Shown here: piece after piece, positions 60,248-64,000 of the stretch
Layout: each line of letters begins with the position of its first letter
Numbering within the stretch: position 1 is the stretch's first letter
DNA from: Maricaulis salignorans
GTDB lineage: Bacteria > Pseudomonadota > Alphaproteobacteria > Caulobacterales > Aquidulcibacteraceae
Direction of reading: 5' to 3'
DNA length: 64,000 nucleotides
Assembly: GCA_945891505.1 (NCBI GenBank)
Contig: CAMDDL010000014.1
Coordinates: 1 to 64,000 of the forward strand
Notes under the pieces: model-generated
What the model saw: the letters and a program-made list of their open reading frames with translations, nothing else
Database searches by the model: none
Told to the model about the DNA's origin: nothing
Position numbers and translations under genes: made by a program

Positions 60248-61521
60248 GAGCTGGCGGCGCGGGGCCTTTTGGTATGTGGGAGCGTACGCTAGCCGCACGC
60301 TATTTGCGGGCTCGGCGTGAAGATGGCGGGGTCGCACTGATCTCGCTGATCAGCTTTATCGGCATATTTCTGGCCGTCGCCGTCCTCATCATTGTGATGA
60401 GTGTGATGAATGGCTTTCGCGCAGAGCTTTTGGGACGTATCTTGGGCGTCAACGGCCATGTCTTTGTCGATGTGCGCAATATGCCCATTCCAGAAGCCCG
60501 CGCCATCGTGGCCAAAGCCAAAGCGTTGCCCGGCGTTATTGACGTGATGCCCAAGATTGACGGCCAAGTCATGGCCGTTGGTCAAGGCGGAAACCTAGCC
60601 CGCGGTGCTGTGGTGACCGGCCTAGCGCCGTCAGATCTGAGCAAGCTCAAGATCGTCTCTGACAATTTGGTTGGTGGAAACCTCAAGACGTGGGGTGTGG
60701 GGGAATATGGCGGCGACGAGATCGCTATGGGCTCTCGCCTTGCAGAATCCTTGGGCGTTTTGCCGGGGGATTCGGTTCAGCTTATTTCGCCACAAGGGGC
60801 TTCGACCCCCTTTGGCACCACCCCGCGTATTAAAGATTACACCGTCTCTGCCATCTTCGACATTGGCATGAGCGAGTATGACGCGACCTTTATCTATATG
60901 CCGATTGAGCAGGCCCAATTATTTTTCTCAAAAGAAACCAGTTGGGACACAATTGAACTGCGGATGCAGGACCCAGATAAAGCCGATGTACTGGCGATTG
61001 AGGTGATGAAATTCAGCCAAAACCGCTATGTAACCGACTGGCGGCAGCAATCAGAAAGCCTCGTTTCTGCTTTGCAGATTGAGCGCAATGTGATGCGCTT
61101 GATCTTGATGTTGATTGTCGCGATTGCGGCGATGAACATCATCTCGGGTCTTGTCATGCTCGTGAAGAATAAGGGCCGCGACATCGCTATCCTGCGCACC
61201 ATGGGAGCGTCGCGCGCCTCGATCATGCGGTTATTTATGATGTCGGGCGCCAGCGTTGGTATTTTGGCGACACTGGCCGGGGCGATAGGCGGCACGTTGT
61301 TCTGCCTGAATATTGGCACCATTCAAAAAGTGGTCGAGTTTGTGTTTGGCCCGGTTTTCAATGCCGATGTTTATTTCTTGAGCCAGATCCCCGCCAAAGT
61401 GGAATGGCATGAAGTGATCACGACGGCCTTGTTTGCGGCGATTGCAAGTGTTGTAGCCACGCTGCCACCCTCCTGGCGCGCCTCCAAGCTCGATCCGGTA
61501 GAGGCGCTTCGCTATGAGTAG
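60244..61521 (+). CDS. lolC: lipoprotein-releasing ABC transporter permease (LolC/E type)
   Basis: 425 residues. MacB/FtsX-type fold: one N-terminal helix (about 25-50, [20 protein letters not shown]), a large periplasmic domain to about residue 275, and three C-terminal helices including [20 protein letters not shown], the coupling helix to the ATPase. The IARKYLR-like start [12 protein letters not shown] is typical. It extracts lipoproteins from the inner membrane for LolA. Many alphaproteobacteria have a single LolC/E-like (LolF) permease, and here only one is present. Overlaps lolD by eight bases. Confidence 0.93.
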
Positions 61522-62194
61522 CCCTGTTCTGCGCCTCACCGATCTGCGCCGGGTCTACCAAACCCACGCGGGCGAGCTGGAAGTCCTCAAAGGGGCCAAT
61601 CTGACCATTATGCCGGGCGAGATCGTCGCACTGATTGGCCCGTCAGGTTCTGGCAAGTCATCGCTCCTCCATGCGGCTGGCCTGCTAGAGGCCGCCCAAG
61701 GTGGGACGGTGGAGCTTGCTGGCATTGATGCAACAAAACTGCCCGACGCCGCTCGCACGGCCCTACGCCGCACTGCGTTGGGCTTTGTCTACCAATTTCA
61801 CCATTTGCTGCCGGAGTTTAGCGCGGTGGACAATGTCGCTTTGCCGCAATGGATTGCAGGCGTGGGCCCAGCCGAGGCGCAAGCCCGGGCAGAGCAACTC
61901 TTGGATATGATGGGCCTAGCGGACCGCAAGTTACATCAACCCGGCCAACTATCGGGCGGGGAGCAGCAGCGCGTAGCGATTGCGCGTGCCCTTGCCAATC
62001 AACCCGCCCTCCTGATTGCGGATGAGCCCACGGGCAACCTAGACCCGGCCACCTCCAGCTTTGTGTTCGACACCTTCCGCAAAGCGACGCGGGAGGAGGG
62101 GACCTCTGCATTGGTCGCTACCCATAACCTTGATTTAGCACGGCAAATGGACCGCGTGTTCCGCATCGAAGGCGGTCTTCTGGTTCAGGACTAG
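61514..62194 (+). CDS. lolD: lipoprotein-releasing ABC transporter ATPase LolD
   Basis: 226 residues. Walker A GPSGSGKSSLLHAAGLLEAA near residue 40, Q-loop in FVYQFHHLLPEFSA, signature LSGGEQQRVAIARAL, Walker B LLIADEPTGNLDP and the switch histidine in ATHN. The LLPEFSA and HAAGLLE patterns are typical for LolD. Works with the overlapping permease gene upstream. A separate SOS-type promoter begins within 40 bases after its stop. Confidence 0.96.
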   Translation: MSSPVLRLTDLRRVYQTHAGELEVLKGANLTIMPGEIVALIGPSGSGKSSLLHAAGLLEAAQGGTVELAGIDATKLPDAARTALRRTALGFVYQFHHLLPEFSAVDNVALPQWIAGVGPAEAQARAEQLLDMMGLADRKLHQPGQLSGGEQQRVAIARALANQPALLIADEPTGNLDPATSSFVFDTFRKATREEGTSALVATHNLDLARQMDRVFRIEGGLLVQD

Positions 62195-62232
62195 AGCCCT
62201 CAATCTTTGTTCCATCGTTCTGCAAAAACCTC

Positions 62233-62272
62233 TTGTCATGAGAACAAAACAAGAATAGAACGAAGGCAGAAC
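62233..62272 (+). promoter_or_regulatory. sigma-70-like promoter overlapped by a LexA box
   Basis: TTGTCA (62233-62238), a 17-base spacer and TAGAAC (62256-62261) make a good promoter. GAAC-GAAGGCA-GAAC at 62258-62272 is an exact alphaproteobacterial LexA box (GTTC-N7-GTTC on the other strand) lying across the -10 and the predicted start point. GAAC-N7-GAAT at 62242-62256 is a second, one-mismatch copy. LexA bound here should block RNA polymerase until DNA damage. Confidence 0.82.
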
Positions 62273-62286
62273 AAAGTAGGTGTAAC

Positions 62287-62373
62287 ATGGCCCATCTTCA
62301 AGACGCAGCCGCTTTCGCAGCAATTATCGCATTCACCCTAATGGCTTGGGGTTGGGGCGCTGTCATCGGTTGA
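62287..62373 (+). CDS. 28-residue single-span membrane protein, SidA-like SOS division inhibitor candidate
   Basis: ATG at 62287, TGA at 62371, 28 residues, preceded by AGTAGGTG at correct spacing and by a LexA-boxed promoter whose start point leaves a leader of only about 20 bases. Residues ~7-27 form one hydrophobic helix with an MAWGWGAV segment; only five residues are polar. Caulobacter SidA is a 29-residue inner membrane, SOS-induced inhibitor acting on FtsW/FtsN late in division, and as far as I recall it lies beside dnaE. Size, topology, control and position agree, but sequence identity could not be tested, so the name is an inference. Confidence 0.7.
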   Translation: MAHLQDAAAFAAIIAFTLMAWGWGAVIG

Positions 62374-62479
62374 GGATGGCTTCAAGATTTCTGTCGGCGA
62401 GGGCTGACAGAGCATCAAGAGTCCTGTCAGACTAAGTCCCTCTTTGGTGATGATTCAGTCGACGGATTCAGGTGGCCCT

Positions 62480-64000
62480 ATGGCAGATATTACTCTTTCA
62501 GGCGGCACGTTCTCTGGCAGTGATCAGAGTGCGGGGAGCGTCGCTTTGACGGGGTCTGCGGAGGCATCGCAAGTAGGTAGACCGGCGTTGGCGGGTCCCG
62601 GATTTGTGCATTTGCGGGTTCGATCCGCCTATTCGCTGCTCGATGGCGCGATGACGGTGAAGAAGCTTGCCGGCTTTGCCGCCAAGGCAGGTTGTGTTGC
62701 TGTCGGTATCTCAGATCCCAATTTGTTTGGCGCGCTCGAATTTTCAGAAGCTCTGGCCGAAAAGGGCATTCAGCCCATTATGGGCCTGACGCTGCCGGTA
62801 TCCTTCCTTAGCCAAAAGCCCGGTGCGGCGGCCGGGCCAGATGGCTGTTTGGCGTTGATTGCGCAGAATGAGGTTGGCTGGGCCAATCTGATGGCACTTT
62901 CCAGTCTGTCCTTTCTAGAGGTTCCGGCAGGGAGCCTGCCCCATGTCAACTTGCAGAAAGTGTTGGACCATAGTGAAGGCGTGATCTGCCTCACCGGGGG
63001 GCGGGAAGGGCTTCTATCGCGCGCACTCCTGGCTAATTTAAAGTCTGAGGCTGACATGTTGCTGCGCCAACTGGCCAAGGCGTTCCCAGATCGGCTTTAC
63101 ATCGAATTACAGCGCCACGGCATGGCCGATGAGGCGCAGATTGAGCCGCTTCTGATTGATCTGGCCTATCAAGGCAATCTTCCGCTGGTGGCAACCAATG
63201 ATGTGCGCTTTGACAGCCCAGAGCGCCATCGCGCTCAAGATATCCTCATGTGCATTGGCCAAGCCACCCGCGTGGCCGATGACAAGCGCGAGCGTGTGTC
63301 CGCCAATCACTGCTTCCGCATTGAAGCCGATATGGTGGCCCTATTTGCGGACCTCCCCGAGGCTTTAGCTAACAGTGTGGACATTGCCCGGCGCTGTGCT
63401 GTGCGCCCGCTTATGCGCGCGCCAATCCTGCCGCGCTTTACCACAGCTGAAGGGCGCGATGAACCAGAGGAATTGGCAAGCCAAGCCCGCCAAGGCCTTG
63501 AAGCACGCCTCGCCAAGCGGCCGCCTGTTGTGGAGCGCGAAATCTATGACCAGCGGTTGGAACACGAAATCAATGTGATCAACCGCATGGGCTTTGCGGG
63601 ATACTTTTTGATCGTTGCGGACTTCATCAAATGGTCGAAAGAGAACAACATCCCCGTCGGCCCCGGTCGGGGGTCTGGTGCAGGCTCGCTCGTTGCCTAT
63701 TCGCTGACCATCACCGATCTCGATCCTTTGGCCTTTGGGCTTTTGTTTGAGCGCTTCTTGAACCCAGAACGCGTCTCCATGCCCGACTTCGATATCGACT
63801 TCTGTCAGGAGAAGCGGGATCAAGTCATTGATTATGTGCAAAAGAAATATGGCGCAGACCGGGTGGCGCAGATCATCACCTTCGGAACGCTCCAGGCGCG
63901 CGCGGCGCTGCGCGACGTAGGTCGGGTGTTGGATATGTCTTACGGCCAAGTCGACCGACTGGCCAAAATGGTCCCGAATAACCCCGCAGCCCCTGTAACT
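62480..64000 (+). CDS. dnaE: DNA polymerase III alpha subunit, 5' part (cut by window edge)
   Basis: 507 codons are visible and the frame is open at the right edge; full-length DnaE is about 1150-1180 residues. The replicative DnaE1 form is shown by the N-terminal PHP domain from about residue 42 ([30 protein letters not shown]), then the polymerase start [18 protein letters not shown] and [18 protein letters not shown] with the catalytic [11 protein letters not shown]. The proposed ATG gives an unusual 41-residue Gly/Ser/Ala-rich N-terminal extension; a GTG at 62606 just before the PHP domain is an alternative start. Not the SOS polymerase DnaE2: no imuA/imuB nearby. Confidence 0.95.

Follow-up and report, generated by a model that had tools for sequence, protein, structure and literature searches.

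Near the right end of the window, the 64,000-nucleotide stretch of Maricaulis salignorans DNA analysed here, a short ORF lies between two longer genes, all features described being on the forward strand. The upstream neighbour (61514-62194, with its stop at 62194) encodes an ABC-transporter ATPase whose best NCBIfam match is LolD, below the curated cut-off, and is referred to as lolD. Downstream, dnaE, encoding the alpha subunit of DNA polymerase III (NCBIfam TIGR00594, above cut-off), initiates with the ATG at 62480 and leaves the window at 64000. The short ORF itself (62287-62373; MAHLQDAAAFAAIIAFTLMAWGWGAVIG) runs from an ATG at 62287 to a TGA ending at 62373 and encodes 28 residues, a predicted membrane peptide of the SidA type that has one hydrophobic helix (Kyte-Doolittle mean of 2.09 over its best 15 residues) and lacks lysine and arginine. 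Scans of the peptide against Pfam and NCBIfam, at E values up to 10, returned no family from either collection. The ORF is preceded by a ribosome-binding site, AGGTG (62278-62282), and by a promoter-like element (62233-62261) composed of TTGTCA (62233-62238) and TAGAAC (62256-62261) at a distance of 17 nt. Two adjacent LexA-box matches overlie this element: a near-exact one with a single mismatch (GAACAAAACAAGAAT; 62242-62256) and an exact GAAC-N7-GAAC (GAACGAAGGCAGAAC; 62258-62272) that overlaps the -10 hexamer. An additional one-mismatch match (62247-62261) overlaps both. The hexamers, the exact and near-exact boxes, the ribosome site and the 28-codon hydrophobic-helix ORF had all been described in an earlier note on this DNA, and direct reading of the letters found every one of them in place.

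The box alone proves nothing, since chance leads one to expect an exact match and a generic sigma-70 scan reported no promoter at the peptide gene. The 64-kb window contains one exact GAAC-N7-GAAC against a mean of 1.59 in shuffled sequences (at least one turns up in 85 of 100 shuffles); with one mismatch allowed, it contains 31 matches, fewer than the shuffle mean of 40. Significance comes from the conservation of the box block and the ORF in all nine genomes of the genus, and from the pattern seen throughout the order (see below). The genome as a whole has 40 exact matches, 30 of which were inspected as loci. Among these 30, 16 fall within a frame of more than 150 codons; two boxes precede lexA, one precedes recA and one lies between ssb and uvrA, the latter seen in part as it is cut by the end of the locus. 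In the same set, exact boxes also precede dnaB and an imuA-like gene, which scores 47 bits against an NCBIfam cut-off of 150; others stand before two ORFs lacking any match, a PpsR-like gene and a hydrolase-like gene. On sequence grounds, GAAC-N7-GAAC is the LexA box of this genome, and the peptide gene is predicted in silico to be under LexA control. The box before dnaB, the gene for the replicative helicase, lies 54 nt upstream of it (L033, C9).

Among 101 genomes searched, all nine belonging to the genus carry the ORF, at 93-100% identity and devoid of internal stops. A check for stop codons and frameshifts in relatives, which the earlier note had proposed, thus left its reading unrefuted within the genus. 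Among the nine sequences, 18 of the 28 codons are variable, with the amino acid altered in two; the pooled pairwise differences (23 nonsynonymous versus 267 synonymous) give a pN/pS of 0.027. The peptide is under strong purifying selection. The control region is similarly preserved: the CTTG of the promoter-like element is found in all nine genomes and TAGAAC in eight, G004 having TAGCAC. The sequence TGAGAACAAAACA-N-GAATAG is common to all nine, and the near-exact first box reads GAACAAAACANGAAT in each of them; a first box of the GAACAAAA type, with GAAT, recurs throughout the order. Eight genomes have the second box in its exact form and G004 has it with a single mismatch, while the ribosome site reads GAGGTG in most of the relatives. 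A GTTC-N4-GTTC arrangement (62209-62220), which the earlier note had taken as a sign of tight repression, is present in the window but has the wrong spacing; it was ruled out as an operator element for its lack of conservation in the genus. Diverged copies of the peptide occur in two more members of the family, G013 (57% identity) and G011 (48%), both with GAACN7GAAC-type boxes (seen by eye and, for G011, also by the order survey). In G013 (L010) the SidA-like peptide and its LexA-type boxes lie away from dnaE, upstream of or near an acetyl-CoA acetyltransferase-like frame, as judged by eye.

The gap between the peptide gene and dnaE measures 106 nt, and no terminator-like site was found in it. 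As a whole it folds at a z of -2.37, with 5 of 200 shuffles as good. A hairpin at 62389-62412, detected by folding and by comparison within the genus, where it is conserved, has 10 predicted pairs; in a single sequence (G005), two of these pairs have both partners changed. By eye, its 3' arm (62404-62410) could instead pair with a second CTGTCAG at 62424-62430. It is conceivable, from this conserved hairpin with its possible competing partner and from the adjoining position of dnaE in most of the cases found, that the ORF is a cis-acting leader, its translation deciding between alternative hairpins in the gap and so controlling dnaE. The selection seen at the amino-acid level (pN/pS 0.027), the copy in G013 that lies away from dnaE with boxes of its own (by eye) and the fact that Caulobacter SidA works as a protein all argue against such a role, which we hold to be very unlikely. 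The region 62389-62430, in which CTGACAG is flanked by copies of CTGTC, might be an attenuator or a processing site.

The window's genome belongs to the same order as Caulobacter. Within this order, dnaE was located in 198 of 200 genomes and the gap upstream was read in 144, from the places listed, a choice that under-represents the more diverged dnaE genes. A hydrophobic ORF of 24-40 residues with a box (at most one mismatch) in the 130 nt before it was found upstream of dnaE in 96 of the 144 genomes; on the reverse strand none of the 144 satisfied this rule, and dinucleotide shuffles averaged 0.6. Three more ORFs, below the hydrophobicity cut, were accepted by eye, bringing the count to 99 of 144. 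By family, the peptide was found in 12 of 35 genomes in f1, the family of the window (9/9 in its own genus), 0 of 21 in f2, 39 of 40 in f3, 33 of 33 in f4 and 15 of 15 in f5. G011 entered the survey, within f1, because it was already a peptide hit. Left out of the count were G125, G094, G205, G029 and G025, whose dnaE start was missed by the pattern, G013, whose copy is elsewhere than at dnaE, and dnaE matches that were unlisted or unfetched; G025 and G029 do have family hits in the genome search. Lengths among the 99 peptides range from 28 to 31 residues (for G130, 40 if the first ATG is taken as the start and 31 with a later GTG). An acidic residue stands directly before the helix in all 82 distinct sequences (D in 53, E in 29), acidity having played no part in choosing them. 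Lysine and arginine are absent from all 12 f1 peptides counted and number one to three in the other 87.

The peptide is missing at dnaE from 23 of the 35 f1 genomes and from all 21 f2 genomes surveyed. A relocated copy was sought in 60 genomes of the family, and genera g11, g8, g9 and g14 gave no match below E 0.01; a profile search of G060, the single f2 genome covered genome-wide, gave no match. Four f1 genomes in which no peptide was detected (G022, G021, G026 and G016; L083, L084, L085 and L100) have a lone GAACAAAAC..GAAT box 64-84 nt upstream of the conserved start of DnaE. Here dnaE itself may be under direct LexA control, and the arrangement resembles an SOS promoter retained after loss of the peptide. 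Two f2 genomes (G080 and G111; L128 and L131) have an exact GTTCN7GTTC box in the gap between lolD and dnaE, right behind lolD, and yielded no peptide.

Could the ORF in the window be a chance reading frame, the neighbouring LexA box serving dnaE and nothing else? An exact box is by itself expected by chance, and the four f1 genomes offer just such an arrangement, a box before dnaE with no peptide found. Yet chance would not readily account for an ORF conserved in nine of nine genomes through mostly synonymous changes, nor for a peptide family spread over the order with an invariant acid, and we find this explanation scarcely credible.

Peptides of all families align nearly gapless. A combined profile, made from f3 (the Caulobacteraceae peptides), f4 and f5, matched the window peptide at 27.0 bits, with none of 5000 shuffles as good (shuffle maximum, 19.5), and the f4 profile matched it at 22.8 bits, again with none of 5000 as good. 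The f3 profile alone gave 3.9 bits (386 of 5000 shuffles as good) and the f5 profile alone 3.4 bits (1552 of 5000). Other f1 peptides behaved comparably against the combined profile, 0, 12 and 39 of 5000 shuffles being as good as those of G011, G020 and G013, respectively. Between families, the f4 profile recognised f3 peptides from G196, G124 and G148 (2, 11 and 0 of 2000 shuffles as good), and the f3 profile, tested on five f4 peptides, gave counts of 9, 2, 6, 37 and 662 of 2000. The link between f5 and f4 is weak (6 and 17 of 2000), and that between f5 and f3 is not clear (900 and 74 of 2000; 55, 1094 and 881 in the reverse tests). Homology to the Caulobacteraceae peptides is significant through the intermediate families, not directly.

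Titled genome records were scanned with 13 f3 peptides and the best 80 of 135 matches were kept; these are mostly from Caulobacter and Phenylobacterium and include Caulobacter vibrioides T5M6 and OR37. Among these best 80, dnaE lies directly downstream in 78, a box with at most one mismatch is present in 79 (exact in 57) and a lolD motif is found upstream in 17. The two dnaE misses are L169, where the stretch starts 24 nt before the peptide and which is also the lone box miss, and L219, where 55 nt were examined downstream. Sixty short loci read by the same locus test yielded nothing. The placement between lolD and dnaE claimed for the peptide gene holds in the window; in the titled loci dnaE is the constant neighbour and lolD is not. 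The Caulobacter records, as identified by title, show a LexA-boxed 29-residue single-helix peptide just upstream of dnaE, which we take to be the locus tag next to sidA in Caulobacter. Published SidA, in excerpted accounts, is a 29-amino-acid inner membrane protein under LexA/SOS control that interacts with FtsW (PMC4211646; PMC12700426), and sidA is CCNA_02004 (PMC10769358, in excerpt). In length, single helix, LexA box and organism, the dnaE-linked Caulobacter peptide fits SidA. Singling out SidA as the sole 29-amino-acid LexA-boxed ORF of Caulobacter was abandoned, one Caulobacter genome having 126 exact boxes, 30 of which were retrieved as loci.

An orthologue or functional analogue of Caulobacter SidA, as the earlier note had it, is what the same place by dnaE, the strong purifying selection and the alignment with that family all point to, and the window gene is best read as a positional orthologue of sidA. 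The two have in common a length of about 29 residues, one hydrophobic helix, LexA boxes of the GTTCN7GTTC type, an acid just before the helix and, judged from the Caulobacter records, a location directly upstream of dnaE. They differ in that direct identity is low and the window peptide has 28 residues, none of them basic; in context, FtsW position 31 is I rather than A in the window's genome, and lolD, upstream here, was not seen in most of the titled Caulobacteraceae loci. The literature searched, mostly without subscription papers, discusses SidA for Caulobacter only, and a wider distribution may be in print.

Beyond the order, the family profile matched 12 of 289 genomes of the class at E <=0.01, nine of them outside the order. 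Six of the nine have a LexA box, those of G336, G220, G417, G374 and G489 adjoining dnaE and that of G233 adjoining lolD at a contig end. Matches in G409, G318 and G484, with neither LexA box nor dnaE nearby, were rejected. In a survey by position, dnaE was located in 279 of the 289 genomes and 90 upstream gaps were read, 86 from listed places, mostly one per family, and four from genomes included because the family profile had matched. Of 21 automatic hits, two were dropped by eye as likely artefacts (G238, within the lolD frame, and G355, running into dnaE); the 19 kept, out of 90 genomes, fall into 12 families, and 15 of 86 remain when the four profile-chosen genomes are set aside. Controls gave 0.8 in shuffles and 2 on the reverse strand, and no such gene was found at dnaE in 71 of the 90. 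When 19 class peptides were scored against the order profile, 14 were equalled by no more than 10 in 1000 shuffles, a test that is circular for six of the 14, as these had already been matched by the family profile; the other five were equalled by 11, 72, 152, 242 and 398. What the comparison adds is this breadth: peptides of a similar kind adjoin dnaE in alphaproteobacterial families outside the order (19 of 90 genomes). We are inclined to think that SidA belongs to an old, fast-diverging family of LexA-controlled division micro-inhibitors, spread over the alphaproteobacteria beside dnaE, whose SOS promoter possibly reads into dnaE. Members of such a family would be betrayed only by position, promoter and the acid before the helix, and SOS read-through would possibly couple the checkpoint to the supply of replicative polymerase. 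A LexA-boxed micropeptide linked to dnaE provides a simple rule for finding a candidate checkpoint gene where length cut-offs may conceal it.

With the gene, its boxes, the selection acting on it, its position and its homology through intermediates in hand, we consider it very likely that the window carries a sidA orthologue, encoding a LexA-repressed, damage-induced membrane peptide that most probably binds FtsW and delays constriction; induction, membrane location, target and division arrest are carried over from Caulobacter by analogy. LexA bound to the two adjacent boxes over the promoter would keep the gene off. Upon DNA damage, activated RecA would promote LexA self-cleavage, allowing the 28-residue single-helix peptide to be made and to insert into the inner membrane. 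There it would most likely contact FtsW within the septal peptidoglycan synthase complex and keep it inactive, delaying septal peptidoglycan synthesis and constriction until repair is finished.

TisB of E. coli is an SOS-induced single-helix peptide, and so is E. coli DinQ, likened here by its description in an excerpted source. Similar in size and likewise under LexA control, these peptides offer another model for the window gene, whose product would then depolarise the membrane and slow growth, the divisome not being its target; so short a helix gives no direct clue to what it acts on. The mechanism and context of TisB and DinQ are unlike those of SidA, however, and the window gene shares its locus and an aligned family with the Caulobacter peptide matching the description of SidA, an inhibitor that acts on FtsW. 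A depolarising peptide is, in our judgement, unlikely.

Other known systems resemble the proposed FtsW inhibitor in part. Caulobacter DidA, compared by its description in excerpted text, is likewise a small inhibitor of division with a single helix, and DNA damage induces it, but it has 71 amino acids, is SOS-independent and DriD-activated and binds FtsN, whereas the window gene is LexA-boxed (PMC4211646). YneA, SosA and ChiZ, likened by description, are damage-induced small membrane inhibitors of late division that have been modelled on FtsW, but they come from other phyla (PMC13396833, in excerpt). The same 2026 study models SidA on TM7 of FtsW with low confidence (PMC13396833).

FtsW is encoded in the window's genome. 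In Caulobacter, according to the excerpted text, the FtsW changes F145L and A246T act as suppressors of SidA as well as of DidA, presumably by locking the complex in an active state, while A31K blocks SidA and not DidA (PMC4211646). The published numbering fits two Caulobacter-type sequences (G196 and G140). In FtsW of the window's genome F145 and A246 are retained, and position 31 is I where the Caulobacter sequences have A. A246 is also kept in G037 and G080, with no peptide detected, and L145 or T246 occurs in the peptide-bearing G020 and G063; as none of these residues follows the peptide across the 10 genomes compared, they are neutral as evidence. The strongly diverged inhibitors make up a natural series for mapping contacts with FtsW. 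In G063 (L301, f5), the native FtsW has L and T in place of F145 and A246, respectively, the very substitutions that suppress SidA and DidA in Caulobacter.
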